NCBI GenBank assembly: GCA_016214955.1
Contig: JACRMN010000022.1
Location: forward strand, 1-64,000
Reading direction: 5' to 3'
DNA from: Deltaproteobacteria bacterium
GTDB taxonomy: Bacteria; Myxococcota; Myxococcia; Myxococcales; Anaeromyxobacteraceae
DNA length: 64,000 bases
The position numbers and the translations under genes were made by a program. The notes under the pieces were generated by a model. That model was not told the origin of the DNA. It saw only the letters and a program-made list of their open reading frames with translations, and searched no databases. Positions 35,793 through 48,570 of the stretch are shown here, one piece after another (positions within the stretch are counted from its first letter, which is position 1; the number at the start of each line of letters is the position of its first letter).

Positions 35793-37324
35793 GCGCCCCC
35801 GCCCCGCCTTCCCGCCGCTGGCTGCGGGGAGCGCGCCCGTCGCGCTTCGAGCTCTCCATCGCCCTGGCGCTGGTGCTGGCGGCGGTGCTGCCGCTCGGGG
35901 CCTCGCTGTGGCTGGCCTCTCGCCTGGCCGCCGAGAACCTGGCGCTGGGGCTGGACCCGCGGGTGGTGGACCGGCTCGAGGCAACGCCGGCGCTCTACGG
36001 CGACCTCTTCCAGGCCCGCAAGCAGCTCTACGCCCAGCAGGCCCGGGCCCTGGCGCAGGGCCTGCCCCGCAGCCCCGCCGCCGTCGGCCCCTACCTGCAG
36101 GCGGCGCTGGAGCGGACGCCGCGGCTGCGGCGGGCGGCGGTCCTGACCGAGGCCGGCGAGGTGGCGGCCGAGGCCGAGAACACGGCGCCCAACCCCGAGG
36201 GCGAGTGGCGCGAGGCGCCGGCGCGGGTGGCGCTCCCCGGAGGTGGGACGCTGGAGTGCGTCTTCGCCATCGAGGCCCACTTCTTCGCCGAGCTCGACGA
36301 GTCGCGGGAGCTGGCCGAGGCGATGGCCGGGGTGGAGGCCTTGCGGGCCGAGATCCAGCGCAGCTACGTCCGGGCCTTCGCGCTGCTGCTCTTCGCCTGG
36401 GCGCTGGTCGCCGGCCTGCTGGGCTGGTGGCTGGCGCGGCGCACCACCCGGCGGGTGACGGCGCTGGTGCGGGCCACCGGCGAGCTGGCGCGGGGCAACC
36501 TGGCGGTGCGGGTCGACCCGGGGCGCTCGGCGGACGAGGTGGCGGAGCTGGCGCGCGCCTTCAACACCATGGTGGCCGAGGTGCGGGAGAGCCGCGACCG
36601 CATCGTCTACCTGGAGAAGATCTCGGGATGGCAGGACGTGGCCCGGCGGCTGGCGCACGAGATCAAGAACCCGCTCACCCCCATCCAGCTCGCCTTCCAG
36701 CAGCTCGAGGCGCGCCACCGGCTGCTGGCCGCGCCCGACCCGGCCTTCGCGCGGCTCCTGGCCGAGGCCGGCGAGATCGTCCGCGAGGAGATCGGGACGC
36801 TGGAGCGGCTGGTGGGGGAGTTCTCGGCCTTCGCCAAGCTGCCCGAGGTGCGGCCCGAGCCCGCCGACCTCGGCGACTTCGCCGAGGAGTACGCGCGCGC
36901 CAGCCCGGCGGAGGGGCTGGCAGCGGGGCTGGAGGTGGTGCGCGCCGCCGGGCCCTGTCCGGTGGCGCTCGACAGGGCGCTGATGCGGACGGTGCTCGCC
37001 AACCTGGTGCGCAACGCCGCCGAGGCTTCGCGCCCGGAGCCGGCGCGGATCCACCTGGGCGTGTCGCGAACCACGGCCCGCGCGGTGCTGACGGTGGGCG
37101 ACGAGGGGCCGGGGATCCCGCCGGAGGTCCGCGAGCGGATCTTCGACCCCTACTTCACCACCAAGTCGGAAGGCACGGGCCTGGGCCTGGCCATCGCCAA
37201 GAAGATCGTGCTCCAGCACGGCGGCGAGATCGAGGTGGGCGGGCGGCCGGGCGGCGGGGCGCAGTTCACGCTCAGCTTCCCGCTCTCCTCGCCGTCCGCG
37301 GCCGGCCCGGCGCGCCCCTCCTAG
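35789..37324 (+). CDS. NtrY-like membrane histidine kinase
   Basis: Sensor kinase of 511 residues. Two membrane helices (about 22-45 and 190-212) bracket a periplasmic sensor of about 150 residues. HAMP follows (TALVRATGELARGNLAVRV), then the H-box VARRLAHEIKNPLTPIQLA, the N-box LANLVRNAAEA, DEGPGIPPEVRERIFDPY and GTGLGLAIAKKIV. No PAS domain was seen between HAMP and H-box. The immediate neighbourhood has no response regulator; the NtrC-family regulator at 53716 is a possible partner. Its TAG stop shares the CTAG at 37321-37324 with the convergent lipoprotein gene. Confidence 0.93.
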   Translation: MSAPAPPSRRWLRGARPSRFELSIALALVLAAVLPLGASLWLASRLAAENLALGLDPRVVDRLEATPALYGDLFQARKQLYAQQARALAQGLPRSPAAVGPYLQAALERTPRLRRAAVLTEAGEVAAEAENTAPNPEGEWREAPARVALPGGGTLECVFAIEAHFFAELDESRELAEAMAGVEALRAEIQRSYVRAFALLLFAWALVAGLLGWWLARRTTRRVTALVRATGELARGNLAVRVDPGRSADEVAELARAFNTMVAEVRESRDRIVYLEKISGWQDVARRLAHEIKNPLTPIQLAFQQLEARHRLLAAPDPAFARLLAEAGEIVREEIGTLERLVGEFSAFAKLPEVRPEPADLGDFAEEYARASPAEGLAAGLEVVRAAGPCPVALDRALMRTVLANLVRNAAEASRPEPARIHLGVSRTTARAVLTVGDEGPGIPPEVRERIFDPYFTTKSEGTGLGLAIAKKIVLQHGGEIEVGGRPGGGAQFTLSFPLSSPSAAGPARPS

Positions 37325-38388
37325 GGACGCAGGGCCACCTCCCGGGTCACCCAGGCCGTCCCGCCCCGCAGGTCGCGAACCACCACCGCCACCAGCGCCC
37401 GCCCACCGCCGGCCACGTCGCCGGCGGCCAGGCGCCACTCGTCGGGCTCCGGCTCGCGGGTGTGGAGCACGTCGATCTCCCCGGCTGTGGAGAACCAGGA
37501 GTAGACCCACTCCTCGGGCGCCCGCCCCACCGGCGCACCCGAGGCGTCGAGGGTGGTCTCCAGGTCGTGGAGGGCGCCGGCGTCGGGTGGGAGCAGCGGG
37601 CGCAGCGCCCAGCGCCCGGCCCCGAGCGGGCTCGGCGGCGCCTCGCCCAGGGCAGCACCGCTGGCGGCGATGCCGGCGACGGCCGGGTTGCGGTTGGGCG
37701 CGTCGGGCGCCTCGGGGCCGCGGACGTGCACGCGCTTCTCGGCCAGCACGTGCTCGCGCTCCCCCCAGAGGCGCGCCAGGCCGGCGCCGAGCCGGGCCGC
37801 GGGACAGCCGCCCGGCGCCGCGCCGGCGAGCTCGTCGGGCGCGGCGTCGACGGCGAAGGCCAGGACTGGCGCGAAGGTCCCCAGGGCCCGCTCCGGCGAG
37901 CCCCGCGGGAGCCCGCCGAACCCGTAGCCGGGCGGCAGCGCCAGGGCGGGTGGCGGGAAGTCCACCACCGTGCCGTCCAACGTCGCCCGGGCCGGGCCGC
38001 AGGCTCCGGCGGAGCAGACCTCGGCGCCTGCGAACACCACCGGGGCCACCGCCGCGCCCGGGCAGGCGGCGCGCGTGGCCTCCACGGCCAGCGCCGCGGG
38101 GTCGCGCAGGGTGGCGAGGGTGGTGCAGGGCGTGGGCGAGGAGTCAGGCCCGGGGAGGCAGGCGACGTAGAGCACCGTGGCCGGCCGGGCGGAGAGGTCG
38201 CCGCGCAGGACCAGGGCGGTGAGGGCGGCGCGATCGGGCGCTGCCGCCGTGGCGGAGGGCGGCTCGATCTCCGGCGGGTCGGCGCGCACCGCCAGCAGGC
38301 GCAGCTTCTCCACGCGGGAGGCGGGATCGAAGTCGGGGGAGCAGGCGGCGAGCGCCAGGACGGCGAGGGCGAGCGGGATGCGGAACAT
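37321..38388 (-). CDS. Lipoprotein of unknown function linked to TonB receptor
   Basis: A 355-residue predicted lipoprotein: signal FRIPLALAVLALAACS with lipobox Cys at about residue 16. The mature part has several Cys pairs (YVACLPGP, TPCTTL, RAACPGA, AEVCSAGACG) and Ig- or fibronectin-like strands near the end (EWVYSWFSTAGEIDVLHT). No family recognised. It lies 37 nt after the TonB-dependent receptor as the last gene of exbB-exbD-tonB-receptor, suggesting a surface or periplasmic helper for uptake. Its stop overlaps the convergent kinase stop. Confidence 0.75.
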   Translation of the reverse strand: MFRIPLALAVLALAACSPDFDPASRVEKLRLLAVRADPPEIEPPSATAAAPDRAALTALVLRGDLSARPATVLYVACLPGPDSSPTPCTTLATLRDPAALAVEATRAACPGAAVAPVVFAGAEVCSAGACGPARATLDGTVVDFPPPALALPPGYGFGGLPRGSPERALGTFAPVLAFAVDAAPDELAGAAPGGCPAARLGAGLARLWGEREHVLAEKRVHVRGPEAPDAPNRNPAVAGIAASGAALGEAPPSPLGAGRWALRPLLPPDAGALHDLETTLDASGAPVGRAPEEWVYSWFSTAGEIDVLHTREPEPDEWRLAAGDVAGGGRALVAVVVRDLRGGTAWVTREVALRP

Positions 38389-38425: not shown

Positions 38426-40960
38426 TCAGTACTCGGCGCGGATCCCGAAGGCGGGAAAGAGCGGCAGCCCCGAGGCCCAGCCCTGGCGCGAGTAGTCGTA
38501 ACTGTAGGCGGCCAGCTCGGGGTTCTTCCGGTTGGTGGCGTTCTGCACCTCGAGGTAGGCGGAGAGGATCCAGGTCTTCCAGGTCCAGCGCTTGTCGACC
38601 CGCAGGTCGAGCTGGAAGAAGGGCGGCGTGCGGGCCCCCGCCGCCAGCTCCGGCACCGGCTGGTAGCTGCCGCCGTCGGCGTCGAGGAGGGCGCCCAGGA
38701 CCCGCCGGTAGGGGTTGCCGCTGGTGTACCGGAGCCGGAACCCGGCCGAGAGCCCCTGCCACACCTCGGGCAGCTCCACCGTGCCCAGGGCGGTGAGGTT
38801 GTGGGGCTGGTCGAAGGCGTCGCCGGTGGGCACGAGCGTGCCGCCCACCACCTGCTGGTGGCGGACGCTGCGGGAGTAGGAGTAGGAGAGCCAGCCACCG
38901 AAGCGGCCGCCCGGGGCCCAGCGCAGCAGCAGCTCGGCACCGGTGACCTGGCCGGTGCCCAGGTTGGCGTAGCGCTCCGGCCCCTCCACCGGCAGCGCCA
39001 GGTCGAAGAGCTGCTTGCGGTAGAGCTGCAGGTCGAGCGAGACCGGGCCGGCGACGCGCTGCTCGAGCCCGAGCATGAAGTGGCGCGCCCCCTCGGGCCC
39101 GAGCCGCGGGTTGCCCCACTGCTCGGTGCGGTAGGCCGCGGCCTGCACCGGCTGGTGGTACAGGCCGGCGCCCCCCTTGAGCGTGGTCCCCTCGCGCGGC
39201 GACCACCGGACGCCGAGCCGGGGGTCGAGCCACCGGGCGGCGCCCAGGATGGTGTAGCGGTCGCCCCGCAGCCCGGCGACGACCTGGAGCGAGGCGGCCG
39301 GGCTCCACCGGGCCTCGGCCCAGGCGCCGGCCTCCGTGCCGCGGAGCCGGAGCTCGGCGCGGACGCGGGGCGCGTCGGGCGACGGCAGCTGGTTGGGCGG
39401 GGGGATGAGGGGGAACTCGACGCGCAGGTGGGCGCGGGGCAGGAAGCGGGCGTCGACGCCCACCGCCAGGCCCAGCGACGCGGAGAGGTCGTGCGAGGTC
39501 TCGGCGCGCAGGTTGGTGATGTGGAGCTGGTCCCGCTCCGAGCCCACCGAGCCCATCTGGCGGGAAACGTCGAAGTAGGCCTGCGCCACGGCCAGGCGGG
39601 CCCGGGTCGCGTCCGAGAAGCGGTGCTCCCAGCTGGCGGCCCCCTGCACGAAGGCGTTGCCGAGCCGCAGCGCACCCTGGCGCAGGTTGCCGCCCAGCTC
39701 CATGCCGGTGAGCTCCATGCGGTCGTCCGAGCCCGTGACCGAGAGGCGCAGGGCGTCGTCGGGGCCGGGGCGCCAGGCCAGGCGCGCCTGGTAGTCGTAG
39801 TAGCGGGGCGCCACCGCCACGCCGAAGTCCTTGCTGCTCCGGGCCGCCTCGCGGACGACGGCGTCGGCGTAGGAGCGGCGCAGCCCCACCGAGAGCGTGG
39901 CGCCCTCGCCCACCGGCCCCTCGGCGAAGGCCATGGCGTGGAAGAGGTTGGCGTCGGCCACCAGGTGGAGCTTCCGCTGCGGATCGCGGGTGCGCAGCTC
40001 GACCATGCCGCCGGTGGCCCTGCCGTGCCGCACGCCGAAGTTCCCGGCCTCGAAGTCCACCGCCTCCACCGCCTCGGCGGGCACGATGCTGGTGAGGCCG
40101 CCGAAGTGGAAGATGGTGGGCACCTCGACGCCGTCCACGTAGACGCGGGTGTCGCCGGGGTTGCCTCCGCGCACCACCAGCAGGCCCAGCCCCCCGGGCG
40201 CCCGGGCCACGCCGGGCAGGTTCTGCACCACCTTGACGGTGTCGCCGGAGACGCCGGCCACGCGCGAGAGCTCGCCCGAGGTGACCGTGACGGTGGTGAC
40301 CTCCTTGCGCTCCCGCTCCCCGACGACCACCGCCTGGTAGGGGTCGTCGAGAGCCCGGAGCAGGTAGTAGCGGGCCTCGACCGCCTTGCCGGCCTCCAGG
40401 AGCTCCTCGGTGACGAAGCGCTCGTGGCCCGGGTCGGAGAGGGAGACGGCACAGGGGCCAGGCGGGAGGTCGAGGAGGGCGAAGCGCCCGTCGCCGCCGG
40501 AGATGCCGGTCTTCCCGCAGGCGGCGACGAGCGCGCCCGGGATCGGCTCGCGGGTGCCGCGCTCCAGCACCTGCCCGCGGAGGATGGCCCGGGGCGCGGG
40601 GGGAGGCGCCGCGGGCGCCTCGAAGCGGAAGCGGTACTCGATGACGACCGCGGATGGGCTGCCGTCGACCTCGGCCGGCGAGAACCGCAGGCGGCGGCCG
40701 GCCTCCAGGGCCGCCTCGTCGAAGCCGTCGCCGGCGGGCTGCAGCACCCGCGCGGCCGCCACCCGGCCCTCGGCGCTGAGCTCCAGCTCCAGCACCACCT
40801 CGGCGGAGCGGCCGGCGGCCCGGGCGGCGGGCGGATAAACGGGGGCGGCGGGCTCGACGACCGCGGGGGCGCGGGTGAGCGCTCCCGGGGACTGGGCGAC
40901 GGCGAGGCCGGGCCCGGCGGCGGCGAGCGCGAGGAGGAGCAACGGCGTGGGGGGACGCAT
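38426..40960 (-). CDS. TonB-dependent outer-membrane receptor with N-terminal TonB-C-like domain
   Basis: Outer-membrane active transporter of 844 residues. After a signal peptide (about 1-24), residues about 35-110 look like a TonB C-terminal domain (VYPPAARAAGRSAEVVLELE; FDEAALEAGRRLRFSPAE). A carboxypeptidase-regulatory-like beta-sandwich follows (ILRGQVLERGTREPIPGALV), then the plug (VVQNLPGVARAPGGLGLLVV; RVYVDGVEVPTIFHFGG) and a 22-strand barrel ending GIRAEY. The ligand is unknown. It lies 5 nt after tonB in the exbB-exbD-tonB operon. The added TonB-like domain is unusual for receptors. Confidence 0.92.
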   Translation of the reverse strand: MRPPTPLLLLALAAAGPGLAVAQSPGALTRAPAVVEPAAPVYPPAARAAGRSAEVVLELELSAEGRVAAARVLQPAGDGFDEAALEAGRRLRFSPAEVDGSPSAVVIEYRFRFEAPAAPPPAPRAILRGQVLERGTREPIPGALVAACGKTGISGGDGRFALLDLPPGPCAVSLSDPGHERFVTEELLEAGKAVEARYYLLRALDDPYQAVVVGERERKEVTTVTVTSGELSRVAGVSGDTVKVVQNLPGVARAPGGLGLLVVRGGNPGDTRVYVDGVEVPTIFHFGGLTSIVPAEAVEAVDFEAGNFGVRHGRATGGMVELRTRDPQRKLHLVADANLFHAMAFAEGPVGEGATLSVGLRRSYADAVVREAARSSKDFGVAVAPRYYDYQARLAWRPGPDDALRLSVTGSDDRMELTGMELGGNLRQGALRLGNAFVQGAASWEHRFSDATRARLAVAQAYFDVSRQMGSVGSERDQLHITNLRAETSHDLSASLGLAVGVDARFLPRAHLRVEFPLIPPPNQLPSPDAPRVRAELRLRGTEAGAWAEARWSPAASLQVVAGLRGDRYTILGAARWLDPRLGVRWSPREGTTLKGGAGLYHQPVQAAAYRTEQWGNPRLGPEGARHFMLGLEQRVAGPVSLDLQLYRKQLFDLALPVEGPERYANLGTGQVTGAELLLRWAPGGRFGGWLSYSYSRSVRHQQVVGGTLVPTGDAFDQPHNLTALGTVELPEVWQGLSAGFRLRYTSGNPYRRVLGALLDADGGSYQPVPELAAGARTPPFFQLDLRVDKRWTWKTWILSAYLEVQNATNRKNPELAAYSYDYSRQGWASGLPLFPAFGIRAEY

Positions 40961-40965
40961 GCGGT

Positions 40966-41685
40966 TCACTCCAGGAAGAAGGTGTAGGTGAAGCGGATCT
41001 CGGTCTCGATCGGCCGGCCGCCGGCGGTGGCAGGGGCGAAGCGGAAGAGGCGCGCCCCCTCGGCCGCGGCGGCCGCCAGCGCCGGGGCGGGCGCCGAGAG
41101 GACGCGCACCCCGGCGACGGCGCCGGCGGCGTCGATGCGCAGGAGCAGGACCACCTGCCCCTCCGCGCCCGCGCGCCGGGCCTCGGGGGGGTACGGAATG
41201 CGGGGGAGCACCAGCGGGCGCGCCGGGGTGGGGGCCAGGCCAGCGACGGGCGCCGCCGGGAGCGCCTGCACCGACGCCGGGTCGGCGGCAGTGGCCCCGG
41301 CGCGCCCCAGCGCGGTGTTGCCGGCGCCCATGGCGAAGCCGCCCGCCCCCACCGTGGCGCCCAGGGAGATGCCGACGCGCGGAGGCGGCGGCGCGGCCGA
41401 GGGCGGGGGAGCCGGCGCCGGGGCCGGGGCCGGCGGGGGCGCGGCGCGGGCCAGGGCGGGCCGCTCGCGGCGGGGCGGAGGCGCGGGGCGCGCCGGAAGG
41501 GCGGCGGGCGGAGCCGGACGCGGCGGCGGCGCCCGGCGGACCACCTCGAGCTCCACGTGCCGCGGCGGCCGGGCCGCCGGGGCGCTGAGCCCCAGGCCCC
41601 ATGCCGCGCCGTGCAGCCCGGCCGAGAGGGCCACGGCGGCGAGGAGCGGCCCACCGCGGTGCCGGCGCATGAGGAGCGGTCCCAT
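40966..41685 (-). CDS. tonB: Energy transducer TonB
   Basis: Periplasm-spanning protein that passes proton-motive-force energy from ExbB/ExbD to the outer-membrane receptor. 239 residues: an N-terminal anchor helix (LLAAVALSAGLHGAAWGLGL), a long Pro/Ala-rich spacer, then the C-terminal domain (RIPYPPEARRAGAEGQVVLL ... FRFAPATAGGRPIETEIRFT). Start 41685 is 3 nt after the exbD stop; ATG 41670 is an alternative. The same TonB-C fold appears in the adjacent receptor. Confidence 0.93.
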   Translation of the reverse strand: MGPLLMRRHRGGPLLAAVALSAGLHGAAWGLGLSAPAARPPRHVELEVVRRAPPPRPAPPAALPARPAPPPRRERPALARAAPPPAPAPAPAPPPSAAPPPPRVGISLGATVGAGGFAMGAGNTALGRAGATAADPASVQALPAAPVAGLAPTPARPLVLPRIPYPPEARRAGAEGQVVLLLRIDAAGAVAGVRVLSAPAPALAAAAAEGARLFRFAPATAGGRPIETEIRFTYTFFLE

Positions 41686-41688
41686 GCC

Positions 41689-42114
41689 CTACCCGCCCTG
41701 CCCCGCGCCCTCGGGCAGCACCACGTCGATGGCGAAGCGCACCATCCCCTCGCCCTTCACGAGGTCGATGACCTCCACGACGCGGCCGTGGGAGGTGGCG
41801 CGGTCGGCGCTGATGAGGGCCCGCGCCTCGGGGCTCCGCGCCACCGCCTGGCGCACCGCACGGCGCGCCTCCTCGGGGGAGGCCGGCGCGCCATCCACGA
41901 AGAGCAGGCCGCCGGCATCGACCGCGAAGGCCACCGTGGGCGGGAGCGCCTCGCCGCCGGCTGCGGCGCGCGGCAGGTCCACGGCAATCTCCCGGCGCGC
42001 CACGTAGGTGGCGGTGACCATGAAGATGATGAGCAGCACCAGCATGATGTCGACGAGGGGCGTGACGTTGATGGCGGCGATGGGCTCGTCGCCCTCTTCC
42101 AGGTGGATGGCCAT
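41689..42114 (-). CDS. exbD: Biopolymer transport protein ExbD
   Basis: Component of the ExbB-ExbD proton channel. 141 residues. The single membrane helix carries the essential Asp in INVTPLVDIMLVLLIIFMV. The periplasmic domain contains the ALISADRATSHGRVVEVIDL block typical of ExbD/TolR. It lies 10 nt after exbB and 3 nt before tonB. Confidence 0.95.
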   Translation of the reverse strand: MAIHLEEGDEPIAAINVTPLVDIMLVLLIIFMVTATYVARREIAVDLPRAAAGGEALPPTVAFAVDAGGLLFVDGAPASPEEARRAVRQAVARSPEARALISADRATSHGRVVEVIDLVKGEGMVRFAIDVVLPEGAGQGG

Positions 42115-42124
42115 GGCGGGCTCC

Positions 42125-42820
42125 CTAGCTGCCGGCGGCGGCGTCGAGGATCCCGGGCCCGCCGGCGGAGGCCCGGGCGCGGGCCAGGGCCAGCGCCCGC
42201 ACGTCGTCTCGCGCCAGGTGAGAGGCCAGGGCGTGGGCCAGGGCCTCGCTGGTGGAGACCAGGGTGCGGAGGCGGCGGCTGAAGGCGTTGAAGGCCGCCA
42301 CCGCCGGGATGGCCACGAAGATGCCCACGGCGGTGGCCACCAGGGCCTCGGAGAGGCCGGCCATCACCGCCGTGGCGCCCGCGTTCTGCGCCGAGCCCAC
42401 CCCGAGGTCGGCGAAGGCCTTGATGATGCCGACCACCGTCCCGAACAGGCCGAGGAAGGGGGCGTTGGAGCCGAGCGTGGCCAGGAAGCCCATGCCGCGC
42501 TCGTAGGCCGGCCGCTCGCGCCGCACCGCGCAGGCGACCCGCTCGGCCACGCTGGCCGGGCCGCCCTCGGCGGCGTCGAGCGCCGCCTCCACCACCCTGG
42601 CCTCCAGGCCGCGCTGGCCGCGGAGCCGCTCCCGGGCGGCGAAGGCGTCGCCGGCCGCCAGGAGCGGCAGGAGCTCGTCGCCACGGCTGCGGCCGTGGCG
42701 CAGGAAGAAGATCCAGCGCTCCAGGATCACCGCCACCGAGGCCACGGAGAGGAGCATCAGCGCGTAGAGCACCCACTCGGCGCCGGCGCGGGTCAGGGCA
42801 TCGAACAGCTGTCGGGTCAT
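42125..42820 (-). CDS. exbB: Biopolymer transport protein ExbB (MotA/TolQ family)
   Basis: Proton-channel scaffold of the TonB system. 231 residues, three membrane helices: about 12-32 (WVLYALMLLSVASVAVILER), then two near 115-190 with the conserved APFLGLFGTVVGIIKAF and ALVATAVGIFVAIPAVAAFN. The start ATG 42820 follows a GAGAGG ribosome site; an in-frame upstream ATG at 42916 would overlap the hairpins. First gene of the uptake operon. Confidence 0.95.
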   Translation of the reverse strand: MTRQLFDALTRAGAEWVLYALMLLSVASVAVILERWIFFLRHGRSRGDELLPLLAAGDAFAARERLRGQRGLEARVVEAALDAAEGGPASVAERVACAVRRERPAYERGMGFLATLGSNAPFLGLFGTVVGIIKAFADLGVGSAQNAGATAVMAGLSEALVATAVGIFVAIPAVAAFNAFSRRLRTLVSTSEALAHALASHLARDDVRALALARARASAGGPGILDAAAGS

Positions 42821-42949: not shown

Positions 42950-45097
42950 TCAGCTCCCCTGCAGCTGCCACTGCAGCCCGACTGCGAAGCCGGGGAAGTG
43001 GCGCCGGGTGGTGTTTCCGTTGCGGGTGACGGTCTGCGGGAGGAGCGCCAGGTCGGCGTCCTGGCCGTCCTGGCCCACCACCATGTTCCATGTCGGGGCC
43101 AGCTGCAGGCCGAGCCCGCGCCCGAGCCCGATGATGGCCTGGGGGCGGAGCTGGAGGTGCCAGATCCGGCGGTCGCGCGCGCCGTCGGTGAGCGTCTGGC
43201 CGCTCAGGAGGTCGACGTCCAGGGCCCACCTCTCGAACGGGACGTGGACGCCGAGGCCCGTGGTCGCGAACCAGCGATCGGTGCGGGACGAGGGGCGGCT
43301 GCCCACCGCCAGGACGGCGTAGGTCCAGGTGCCGCCCAGCTTGGCGCCGAGCTGGAGGGGAGTGACGTCGCTGGCCCAGGCCCCCACCGTGCGGTAGCCG
43401 TCCTTCACCCAGTTGAAGAGGCCTATGGGCGCCTCGGCGTGGTCGGCCACGTTCACCAGCCCCACCGGCATCCAGGCGCTGCCGGCGACGTTGGCGAGGC
43501 CGAGCTGCATCCCGGCCGCGCCCGACGACCAGTTGGCGAGGCCGGCCTGCACGCCGGTGACGGAGCCGGCCACGTTGACGAGCCCGCCCTGCCCGCCCAG
43601 CGTGGGCCCGGCGACGTTGACCAGGCCGGCCTGCACGCCGCGCAAGCTGGCCGCCTGGCTGTAGAGGTTGAGCTGGGCGCCGAGCGCCTCGCCGCGGACG
43701 ATGCCCACCAGGCCCTCCTGCACCCCGACGAAGGAGCCGCCCACGTGGCCGTAGAGGCCGGCCTGGTAGCCGGTGGCGTCGCCGCCGGCCCAGCTGGCGA
43801 GGCCGTATTGCACGCCCCGGACCTCGCCCTCGACGACGTTGACGAGGCCGAGCTGCACGCCGGCCATGCGCTGCGTCTCCCAGTTGACCCCCGCCCCCAG
43901 CTCCAGCCCTCGCAGCTCGGCGATGCGGCCGTAGAAGAGGTTGATGGAGAGGCCGGCCGACACCGGCGTCCCGTCGCCGGCCAGGCTCACGGGGTGCCAG
44001 ACCGAGAACTGCACCGGCACGTGGCGCAGCCCCTCGCCGCCGCGGCGGGCCACCGGCTCGCCGGGCGGGGCGGCCCCGAAGTCCCCGCGGGAGAGCACCA
44101 GGCGCTTCCCCTCGGCCAGGACCGCCTGCGCCTCCAGCATCCCCGCGCCGGTGTCGAGCCGGACCGCGTAGCGTCCCGGCTCCAGCCCCAGCTCCAGCGG
44201 CTTGCCCGCCGGGTGGCGCAGCTCCACCACCAGCCGCCCGTCCACGTCGCGAACGTAGAGGCGCCCCGCCAGGTCCTCCGCCAGCACCAGCCCGGCGGTC
44301 TGGGCGCGCAGGTCGGTCATCACCAGGTCGCCGGTTCCCGCCAGGTGGATGTCGTAGGCCGGGTGCTGCGGGCCGGCCGCCGATTGCTCGGTCTTGGCCA
44401 GGGTCTCCTGGAAGGCGAACTGGTAGGCCTCGGTGAGCGTCACCTTGCCGTCGCCGGAGGCGTCGGCGGCACCGCGCAGGCCGGTGAGGAGCGCAAAGGT
44501 GAAGTAGCTGCTCCGGATCCGATCCGACTCCTGCGCCACCTCGTCGGCGGAACTGGAGGTGAGGAAGGCGTACCCCTTCACGGCGCTGGAGGCGTCGACC
44601 AGGAACGGGGCCACCCGCTTCCCGCCCTTCTGGCGCACCAGCGAGCCGGCGTGGCAGGAGTCGATGATGGCCACCCGTACGTCGGCCGGGAGCGCGTCGA
44701 CAGCGTCCCGCAGCTCCCCGTAGGTGAGCTTCTCGCGCCCGAGCAGCAGGCCGGACTCGTCGGCGTGGCCCGAGTAGTAGAAGACGAACTCGGTGCGGGA
44801 GCCGGCGGCGCGGGCCCGGGCGGCGCGCTCCCGGATCCGGGCCAGCCCCTCGGCGAGGTGCGCGCGGGTGGGGCCGGTGAGCAGCGCGGCGTCCTCGCCG
44901 GCCACGCCGCCCATGCGCCCGAGGACGGCGGCCAGCCCCTCGGCGTCGCTGACGGCGTAGCGGAGGGCGACGCGGCCGGCGCCGCCGTCGTTCGAGCCCA
45001 CGAAGAGGCCGAAGCGGCGGATGGGGGCACCGGGTGCGGCGCTGGCTGCCGGGGAGGCGGCCAGGGCGGCGAGGAGCAGGGCGGCTGCAGGCGTCAT
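42950..45097 (-). CDS. Exported caspase-like protein with surface-repeat C-terminus
   Basis: A 715-residue protein with a signal peptide (MTPAAALLLAALAASPAASA). Residues about 28-260 form a caspase-like (peptidase C14) domain with the dyad His111 (FYYSGHADESG) and Cys148 (VAIIDSCHAGS). Inside it is a textbook EF-hand loop, residues 212-223 (D-S-D-K-T-E at positions 1,3,5,7,9,12). A beta-rich middle follows. Residues about 400-650 are Gly/Asn/Leu repeats such as GVQLGLVNV, GVQAGLANWSSG and MQLGLANVAGS, resembling the LA_2272-type surface repeat. The ATG overlaps the anti-sigma stop (ATGA). Processing target and role unknown. Confidence 0.85.
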   Translation of the reverse strand: MTPAAALLLAALAASPAASAAPGAPIRRFGLFVGSNDGGAGRVALRYAVSDAEGLAAVLGRMGGVAGEDAALLTGPTRAHLAEGLARIRERAARARAAGSRTEFVFYYSGHADESGLLLGREKLTYGELRDAVDALPADVRVAIIDSCHAGSLVRQKGGKRVAPFLVDASSAVKGYAFLTSSSADEVAQESDRIRSSYFTFALLTGLRGAADASGDGKVTLTEAYQFAFQETLAKTEQSAAGPQHPAYDIHLAGTGDLVMTDLRAQTAGLVLAEDLAGRLYVRDVDGRLVVELRHPAGKPLELGLEPGRYAVRLDTGAGMLEAQAVLAEGKRLVLSRGDFGAAPPGEPVARRGGEGLRHVPVQFSVWHPVSLAGDGTPVSAGLSINLFYGRIAELRGLELGAGVNWETQRMAGVQLGLVNVVEGEVRGVQYGLASWAGGDATGYQAGLYGHVGGSFVGVQEGLVGIVRGEALGAQLNLYSQAASLRGVQAGLVNVAGPTLGGQGGLVNVAGSVTGVQAGLANWSSGAAGMQLGLANVAGSAWMPVGLVNVADHAEAPIGLFNWVKDGYRTVGAWASDVTPLQLGAKLGGTWTYAVLAVGSRPSSRTDRWFATTGLGVHVPFERWALDVDLLSGQTLTDGARDRRIWHLQLRPQAIIGLGRGLGLQLAPTWNMVVGQDGQDADLALLPQTVTRNGNTTRRHFPGFAVGLQWQLQGS

Positions 45098-45840
45098 GGG
45101 GCGACCTTCCGGAGGTGGATGCTGGACTGGTGCCAGCCGGCGGGCAGGCGCAGCGGCTGGCCGGGGACGGCGGCGCGGGCCGCCTCCATCACCCTGGCGA
45201 CGTCGACCGGCCGGGACGCGGCCACGAGGACGAAGCGTTCGAAGCCCGGCTCGGCGTCGAGCTGGAACGCGTGCGGGAGCGCCACCGGGCCGCCGGGCTC
45301 GAGCCGCGCCGGCTGGCCGGGCTCCTCGGGCCAGTGGAGCGTGACCGAGGCACGGGCATCGACCGAGACGATGACGCCGTGGACCCGGCCGGCGGCGAGG
45401 TAGGCGAGCTGGACCGCCTCGCCCGGCCCCACGGCGGCGCCGTCGACCAGCCGCTCGGGCCGCCCCTGGCGCACCGTCATCGCCAGCAGCTGGGGCACGG
45501 CCCCCTTGATCCGCTCCTCGTCGCCCCCGGGGCGGACCCAGAGCGCCAGGGCCACGGCGCCGGCCAGCGCCGGCGCGGCCAGGAGCAGGAGCCGGCCGCG
45601 GGGGCGGGCCGGGGCCGGAGCCGCGGCGGCGGCTCGCCGGCGGATCTCGGCGGCCACGGCGGCGGGGGGGTGGCTGGCCAGGATCTCGCGGTTCGACGCG
45701 CGCAGGGCGTCGAGCCGCGCGGCCAGCCCGGCGTCCGAGGCGAGCCGGGCCTCGAGGTCGGCCCGCTCCGGGCCGTCGAGCTCGCCCAGGTCGAGGAGCT
45801 CCAGGGTCCGGTCGGAGACCGGCGCAGACCGGGACGTCAT
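45094..45840 (-). CDS. Membrane anti-sigma-like protein with DUF4384-like periplasmic domain
   Basis: A 248-residue single-pass membrane protein between the sigma factor and the caspase-like gene. Residues 1-65 are a helical cytoplasmic domain (LELLDLGELDGPERADLEAR) as in anti-sigma factors, but without the HxxxCxxC zinc motif. The membrane helix is at about 83-102. The outer part (VQLAYLAAGRVHGVIVSVDA; VTLHWPEEPGQPARL) resembles DUF4384, often found with caspase-like proteins and Ser/Thr kinases. Both ends overlap neighbours by 4 nt. Sigma inhibition is inferred from context. Confidence 0.75.
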   Translation of the reverse strand: MTSRSAPVSDRTLELLDLGELDGPERADLEARLASDAGLAARLDALRASNREILASHPPAAVAAEIRRRAAAAAPAPARPRGRLLLLAAPALAGAVALALWVRPGGDEERIKGAVPQLLAMTVRQGRPERLVDGAAVGPGEAVQLAYLAAGRVHGVIVSVDARASVTLHWPEEPGQPARLEPGGPVALPHAFQLDAEPGFERFVLVAASRPVDVARVMEAARAAVPGQPLRLPAGWHQSSIHLRKVAP

Positions 45841-46325
45841 GGCGACACCCCCTCCAGCGCGGCCACGCGGGAGCGCAGCGTCCGCAGCCGCTTGCGGACG
45901 CCGGACACCGAGAGCCCGACCTCGCGGCCGATCTCCTCCATGGTCATCCCGTCGAGCAGGTGCATGACGGCGATCTCCCGCGTGCTGGCGGTCTCCCGCC
46001 CGAAGATGCGGCCGAGGAGCTGCCGCGCCGCCACCACGCCGTCGGCCCCCTCCTCCAGCCGGGCGATCTCCAGCACCGCCTCGTCGGTCGGGTCCTCGGG
46101 GCGGCGGCGCGCGCTGCGCAGCAGGTTGAGGCAGACGTTGGTGGCGATGCGGAGGAGGAGTGGGCCCATCCGGCCCGGCTCGACCTCGTCCTCGCGGCGC
46201 ATGAGCTGGATGAACACGTCGTGCATGGCGTCCAGGGCTCGACCCTCGTCGCGGAGGAGTTTCCGGCAGCGGCGCAGGACCATCGGCCCGTGGCTCGCGT
46301 AGGCTTCCTCGACGTCGGTGACCAC
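45837..46325 (-). CDS. ECF-type RNA polymerase sigma factor
   Basis: A 162-residue sigma-70-family factor with region 2 (AYASHGPMVLRRCRKLLRDE; HDVFIQLM) and region 4 helix-turn-helix (MTMEEIGREVGLSVSGVRKR). There are no regions 1 or 3. I chose GTG 46325, with GGGAGG 4 nt upstream; a GTG at 46349 is possible. Coupled to the anti-sigma gene by ATGA. The target promoter is unknown; autoregulation of this operon is the usual pattern for ECF pairs but no repeated motif was found upstream. Confidence 0.88.
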   Translation of the reverse strand: MVTDVEEAYASHGPMVLRRCRKLLRDEGRALDAMHDVFIQLMRREDEVEPGRMGPLLLRIATNVCLNLLRSARRRPEDPTDEAVLEIARLEEGADGVVAARQLLGRIFGRETASTREIAVMHLLDGMTMEEIGREVGLSVSGVRKRLRTLRSRVAALEGVSP

Positions 46326-46491
46326 TCGCCCTCCCGATCCCTGATTCACCGCTGTACGCGGCCAGCGTCACCAGGAATGGGACACGCCCCATCCGGTGCG
46401 GCACCCCCGGCGCGGAGCACGCGCTCCTCCCTTCGGGTGAGCCCTCGCCTCGGCCGCGCGCCGGCGGCCGGGCCTCCGGGTGCGGTCCGCC

Positions 46492-48570
<2,079 letters not shown>

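Follow-up and report, generated by a model that had tools for sequence, protein, structure and literature searches.

A sigma factor, an anti-sigma factor and a caspase-like protein encoded together in Myxococcota: a candidate trans-envelope signalling module

Introduction

What would a caspase-like protease do when its gene is joined to those of a sigma factor and a membrane protein? Relatives of caspases are common in bacteria, and few have a known physiological substrate. We address the question for three genes, here called SIG, ANTI and CASP, in the first 64,000 nucleotides (the window) of contig JACRMN010000022.1 from a Deltaproteobacteria bacterium of the Anaeromyxobacteraceae (GenBank assembly GCA_016214955.1). 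A preliminary description of the window had proposed an envelope-sensing circuit in which an extracytoplasmic function (ECF) sigma factor, a membrane anti-sigma-like protein and a calcium-gated surface protease are made together, the protease perhaps acting on the anti-sigma protein. Our results favor the circuit but neither the calcium gate nor the surface location. The trio is probably, though by no means certainly, a self-regulated trans-envelope signalling module with CASP as the site-1 protease of ANTI. This locus family thereby offers a specific candidate substrate, a named lysine in the co-encoded anti-sigma factor that has a matching mark in the caspase itself.

Results

The three genes lie on the minus strand and overlap by four nucleotides at each junction, as previously described (ANTI begins at 45840, just before SIG stops at 45837, and CASP begins at 45097, just before ANTI stops at 45094). 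Four more CASP homologs occur in the window's own genome and homologs are present in 32 of 41 related genomes; the order SIG-ANTI-CASP was found in most of 40 loci, among them each of the four paralogous loci in the window's genome. A search over one genome per species returned 309 CASP relatives, the best 80 of which belong to Myxococcota or to records that carry the labels Fermentibacteria, Spirochaetes/Treponema, Fibrobacter, Gemmatimonadetes and FCPU426, the taxonomy of metagenome-assembled genomes being as deposited. Enough upstream sequence was available for 67 of these 80. ANTI was present in 57 of the 67 and SIG together with ANTI in 45, and the commonest junction was the four-nucleotide overlap (29 and 38 cases), followed by one nucleotide, all of these counts being approximate since gene starts were chosen by script. 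The gene order is thus kept across phyla, which refutes a restriction of the trio to close strains.

SIG is an ECF sigma factor, with regions 2 and 4 only and a length within the range of ∼160-190 amino acids. It scored above the cut-off for Pfam Sigma70_r2 (42.5 versus 24) and NCBIfam TIGR02937 (59.5 versus 42.9), and slightly under it for Sigma70_r4_2 (24.9 versus 25.7). For ANTI, the model shows four helices (residues 10-73) at high predicted local distance difference test scores, a low-confidence helix (90-101) in the hydrophobic segment and an immunoglobulin-like (Ig-like) domain beyond it, in agreement with the cytosolic helical domain and single membrane helix first proposed. The earlier wording “DUF4384-like” is also fair, the match to that Pfam family lying below cut-off (16.9 versus 27 bits; two paralogs scored 25.1 and 16.6). 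Paralogs of ANTI carry an HxxxCxxC zinc motif in the cytosolic domain (zf-HC2, 30.0 bits versus a cut-off of 22.2). In the window ANTI and its orthologs these residues are replaced, yet the domain aligns with that of the zinc-bearing paralogs; because only the paralogs have the motif, we file the window protein as a zinc-less relative of zinc-type anti-sigma factors. Many other proteins of the same genomes match ANTI solely within its first ∼100 positions, which suggests that this part is a general anti-sigma domain. Judged by its zinc-finger paralogs and the domain alignment, ANTI is an anti-sigma factor, one that would bind and inhibit SIG. A structure search with the ANTI model gave generic Ig-like matches only (Z ∼8.5) and no anti-sigma structure, which proves nothing against this assignment. 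Membrane-anchored relatives of the outer domain also occur (L231, L252, L253) without an adjacent sigma gene, a recognisable anti-sigma domain or the K-G motif treated below.

CASP matches Pfam Peptidase_C14 (33.3 versus a cut-off of 21.4 bits). Its modelled caspase domain (∼25-266) resembles metacaspase 4 and animal caspases (Z ∼19); residues 26-266 align with the plant metacaspase 6w8r at Z 19.7 and a root-mean-square deviation of 3.0 over 208 residues, and phmmer with CASP found no match among the sequences of the PDB. The His111/Cys148 dyad, noted as intact before, is invariant in 40/40 relatives and in all 61 aligned orthologs. Metacaspases take Arg or Lys at P1, and the proposed S1 residues of TbMCA2 include Ser156 and Asp211 (PMC4357240), to which S109 and D146 of CASP, invariant in the ortholog alignment, correspond. 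Profile, predicted fold, dyad and acidic S1 residues suited to a basic P1 place CASP in caspase family C14, as a metacaspase/orthocaspase-like member. The EACC1-associated caspase family (NF047832) was rejected for CASP (61 bits versus a cut-off of 140). The EF-hand-type loop reported at residues 212-223 is real and conserved (D212 in 40/40, D216 in 37/40, E223 in 39/40) and is modelled as helix-loop-helix; it has a D-x-[DNS]-x-D-G motif with flanking helices, and no Pfam EF-hand match. Calcium gating is nevertheless unsupported, since the loop has no fifth-position Asp in some members and occurs also in caspases outside the main family.

The C-terminal part of CASP is a predicted outer-membrane beta-barrel. 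The model gives residues 358-711, with high confidence, long strands joined by short turns. Among the Foldseek matches, those that are not caspases are porins, OmpA, NspA and a designed transmembrane barrel, and these are weak (probability ∼1 but E > 0.01). CASP paralogs with unrelated C-terminal sequences also resemble small barrels, and several of them end in Phe or Tyr. The LA_2272-type assignment of the preliminary description stands, the NCBIfam profile LA_2272_repeat (NF047436) being above cut-off (35.1 versus 25 bits), but the repeats appear to be strands of the predicted barrel and not a surface repeat tail. Repeat-length differences among orthologs, counted modulo 14 or 28 as a check for an even number of barrel strands, gave no information, as the repeats vary in length. 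As the C-terminus is predicted to sit in the outer membrane, the N-terminal caspase domain most likely lies in the periplasm, facing the outer domain of ANTI; the notion of a surface or exported protease is therefore unsupported.

The evidence that CASP cleaves ANTI comes from a motif found in both proteins. When 22 paralogs of ANTI are aligned, no columns but those of K112-G113 are invariant; this pair lies about ten residues outside the membrane segment and is invariant in 40 orthologs too. Wherever ANTI adjoins a caspase, [K/R]-G is present (170/170; 168 Lys and 2 Arg). CASP has R-x-K157-G158 in a low-confidence loop behind Cys148, and [K/R]-G stands exactly at Cys+9 in 156 of 156 distinct domains (154 K, 2 R), even though our script would have accepted it at other positions within a range. 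The motif is missing at Cys+9 from three caspases of these genomes that have no partner genes. Moreover, the two proteins appear to vary together. Lys has changed to Arg on both sides in three distant CASP/ANTI pairs (L230, L232, L242), and the presence of Arg at P3 co-occurs in partners: among 28 clusters we counted 17 R/R, 7 non/non, 4 R/non and 0 non/R (Fisher p 2.8e-4). This association was counted at 60%-identity clusters, and shared ancestry can inflate it.

Orphan pairs, that is sigma/anti-sigma pairs without an adjacent caspase, provide a natural test. The Lys is kept in four orphan ANTI proteins (L221, L222, L054, L312) whose genomes hold an unpaired or additional caspase (G026, G038, G024; and G134, a fragmented assembly). 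In genomes in which no spare caspase turned up (G004, G009, G016, G019; G012, G015; G017), the site is deleted or replaced by Ala, Gln, Arg or Thr. On the tree these fall into three changed lineages (Q/R; deletion/A; T) besides three that retain the site; L241, which ends at a contig edge, was left out of the count. Because the K-G motif matches in both partners and the Lys changes in orphans without a spare caspase, we favor CASP as the site-1 protease of ANTI. The earlier suggestion that the protease acts on the anti-sigma protein thus gains independent sequence evidence.

However, these results should be read with some caution, since several observations weigh against cleavage of ANTI by CASP. 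The orphan lineages are few and tree support for their exact placement is weak (0.32-0.38 at two nodes), and one caspase-less orphan, L228, retains a basic residue (Arg) at the Lys site. The K-G of ANTI could be structural and its match in CASP fortuitous. Several Myxococcaceae loci encode CASP without SIG or ANTI, so that CASP may have other duties. The predicted template modelling score of the CASP model is 0.55, which leaves domain placement, and with it the periplasmic side, uncertain. Finally, a divergent caspase family (L038, L072, L254, L257, L258) is paired with sigma and anti-sigma-like genes and has no K-G at Cys+9, for which reason we confine the cleavage claim to the main caspase family. 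The divergent proteins read A-[AT]-C-H-S-G, with no Asp at Cys-2, and a different logic may apply to them.

A conserved element, GGTGACA-N14-CGGTGT, precedes the operons. In many named loci the motif GGTGAC-N15-CGGTGT stands mostly 35-76 nucleotides upstream of SIG with the spacing constant at 15, and where SIG is absent it stands upstream of ANTI instead. Because the window copy (GGTGAC-N15-CGGTG) occupies 46347-46372, SIG probably starts near 46325, the start implied by the preliminary description. The exact 13-base pattern gave 16 sites versus 0 for the reversed pattern in the 41 genomes. With one mismatch allowed, a search of the own genome was unspecific (209 sites versus 115 in the reversed control), and only exact sites were used afterwards. 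Further exact sites in the 41 genomes precede ExbB genes, DUF2807 lipoproteins and one barrel-repeat protein, and in Nannocystis one is divergent from a copper-monooxygenase-like lipoprotein gene. A second paralog subfamily has its own element, TTGCG-N17-GTGTT, in 14/16 members and a third has CACAC-N13-GGGGT in 10/13 (shuffled best 2), as would be expected of parallel circuits; in the LTQVKG subfamily promoter analysis gave no clear motif. Since the motif precedes SIG and related operons, the pattern indicates that the SIG operon is autoregulated. Free-standing LA_2272-type barrel proteins without a caspase were also seen beside or under the same motif (L040, L042, L043, upstream of SIG; L155; L239).

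The promoter makes CASP a target of SIG, and CASP could accordingly be merely an output, an outer-membrane effector of envelope remodelling or cell death, while another protease or a ligand inactivates ANTI and K-G serves self-cleavage in CASP and structure in ANTI. The CASP genes that lack SIG and ANTI fit such a role. Yet K-G is the sole invariant feature of ANTI and is altered in orphan lineages without a spare caspase, and the basic residue and P3 type of ANTI track the caspase loop, so that we regard an output role alone as unlikely.

The features of the locus are collected in Table 1. In the window CASP is followed by genes for ExbB, ExbD, TonB, a TonB-dependent receptor and a putative lipoprotein. 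Of 120 other loci searched, some of which share a genome, 18 have TonB-system genes beside a REP-type caspase, and the arrangement of these genes varies, being divergent in Anaeromyxobacter, upstream in Myxococcus and downstream elsewhere.

Table 1. Features of the SIG-ANTI-CASP locus and adjoining genes (positions in the window).
Feature	Position	Strand	Remarks
Promoter-like site GGTGACGCTGGCCGCGTACAGCGGTG	46347..46372	-	∼47 nucleotides upstream of SIG; motif shared with related operons
SIG, ECF-type sigma factor, ∼162-170 amino acids	45837..46349	-	Sigma70_r2 and TIGR02937 above cut-off; start probably near 46325
ANTI, anti-sigma factor (by paralogs and alignment)	45094..45840	-	Cytosolic four-helix domain 10-73, membrane segment ∼82-102, Ig-like outer domain 113-248
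ANTI K112-G113, predicted caspase cleavage site	45502..45507	-	∼10 residues outside membrane segment
CASP	42950..45097	-	Signal peptide, caspase domain ∼25-266, beta domain 268-343, outer-membrane beta-barrel ∼358-711 (predicted)
CASP catalytic His111	44765..44767	-	Conserved in alignments
CASP catalytic Cys148	44654..44656	-	Conserved in alignments
CASP K157-G158 (Cys+9), predicted self-cleavage site in low-confidence loop	44624..44629	-	
CASP EF-hand-like loop, residues 212-223	44429..44464	-	
CASP predicted outer-membrane beta-barrel with LA_2272-type repeats	42965..44026	-	
ExbB, directly downstream of CASP	42125..42820	-	
ExbD	41689..42114	-	
TonB	40966..41685	-	
TonB-dependent receptor with N-terminal TonB_C domain	38426..40960	-	
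Putative lipoprotein	37321..38388	-	By eye resembles a gene that separates the receptor gene from CASP in Myxococcus loci

This neighborhood bears on two further explanations. CASP might control ANTI through binding, the barrel-anchored protein touching the Ig-like domain to shield it or to signal occupancy, as RseB does with RseA or a receptor with FecR, and with catalysis reserved for another substrate. The TonB-system genes recall FecI/FecR/FecA signalling, and the ortholog alignment of ANTI shows strongly conserved outer-domain residues (Q144, S159, D161, H169, E201), both in favor of this reading; pure binding, however, needs neither the strict conservation of the catalytic dyad nor the matched K-G, and we consider it improbable. 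Alternatively, SIG could turn on a caspase killer in a regulated-suicide or conflict module, as in proposals for EACC-type caspase systems, and published proposals do couple caspases with ECF sigma factors in conflict systems (PMC8195603). Here the companions are a TonB system and envelope lipoproteins, defence-type partners are absent, the PADLOC match is negligible, CASP misses the EACC1 model and several conserved copies exist per genome, all of which makes a suicide module very improbable. A defence-system reading of the locus was dropped for want of profile support.

Two further observations concern the neighboring genes. The receptor carries a TonB C-terminal domain at the N-terminus, and its gene follows immediately on that of the separate TonB. 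At 46492-48522, on the minus strand, a queuine tRNA-ribosyltransferase and a C-terminal Methyltransf_30 (MnmC-like) domain are fused in one reading frame.

Discussion

The conserved trio, the anti-sigma character of ANTI and the promoter motif support an envelope-sensing circuit that is made together with a protease. From these patterns we infer the following course of events. ANTI would keep SIG bound at the inner membrane, while CASP would be exported, its beta-barrel holding it in the outer membrane and its caspase domain lying in the periplasm. Some envelope- or barrel-related signal would activate CASP, which would then cleave itself at R-x-K|G, after K157, in the loop that follows the catalytic Cys; self-processing has been seen in one bacterial orthocaspase (PMC5756287). 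CASP would also make the site-1 cut, after K112 of ANTI (R-x-K|G) and close to the membrane on its outer side, and general intramembrane and cytosolic proteases could then free SIG. Released SIG would transcribe its own operon from GGTGACA-N14-CGGTGT as well as envelope genes, namely ExbB/ExbD/TonB/receptor clusters, DUF2807 lipoproteins and barrel proteins.

A broader hypothesis, which we advance tentatively and with some doubt, is that outer-membrane-tethered caspases are the dedicated site-1 proteases of widespread, multi-copy and insulated sigma/anti-sigma circuits, in which every circuit has a cleavage mark and promoter element of its own, and that folding or occupancy of the barrel is the signal by which the state of the outer membrane is reported to RNA polymerase. 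If the proposed module is real, these caspase-fold proteases serve envelope signal transduction and not cell death, and several circuits of this kind operate side by side in myxobacteria. It would represent a variant of regulated proteolysis, and would give bacterial caspases a concrete job.

Comparison with known systems

The proposed module resembles regulated proteolysis of the RseA/DegS/RseP type in the sigma-E pathway: the anti-sigma factor sits in the membrane with a domain in the periplasm, and release of the ECF sigma factor would begin with a cut on the outer side of the membrane. In the sigma-E pathway the first protease is membrane-anchored and trypsin-like, whereas here it would be an operon-encoded caspase tethered to the outer membrane. 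The FecI/FecR/FecA system is similar in that genes for an ECF sigma factor, a one-helix anti-sigma factor and a TonB-dependent receptor can be neighbors, but we saw no FecR match in the present locus, the conserved outer-membrane partner is the caspase-barrel protein, and the linkage to TonB holds in some loci only.

ECF sigma factors near other caspase-fold proteases have been discussed for ECF54 with a CHAT protease (PMC8999054) and for EACC2-caspase neighborhoods (PMC8195603), and proteolytic control was proposed for these as well. ECF54, however, is proposed to act without an anti-sigma factor (PMC8999054), and the EACC2 systems have other domains, TPR and TRADD-N (PMC8195603). With metacaspases and orthocaspases (C14B) CASP shares the His-Cys dyad, the predicted fold, the Asp at Cys-2 and an expected basic P1; it adds a C-terminal beta-domain spacer and the predicted barrel. 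TbMCA2 binds calcium via four aspartates, whereas CASP has an EF-hand-like loop.

The closest precedent contradicts in part the earlier statement that no description was known. According to the operon text of Asplund-Samuelsson et al. (2012; PMC3501461), a sigma-70 factor occurs in the four metacaspase operons of M. xanthus, and the same structure is found in Anaeromyxobacter, Haliangium, Sorangium, Ralstonia and Fibrobacter. The trio studied here is of the same kind, a sigma factor with a metacaspase. That operon text has no anti-sigma partner, outer-membrane barrel, promoter motif, TonB linkage or cleavage site, all of which are proposed here, and a literature search that lay mostly outside subscription journals found no proposal of an anti-sigma factor as a caspase substrate. 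In conclusion, the pairing of sigma factor and metacaspase was known, and the identity of ANTI, the outer-membrane tether, the promoter and the matched cleavage motif appear to be new.

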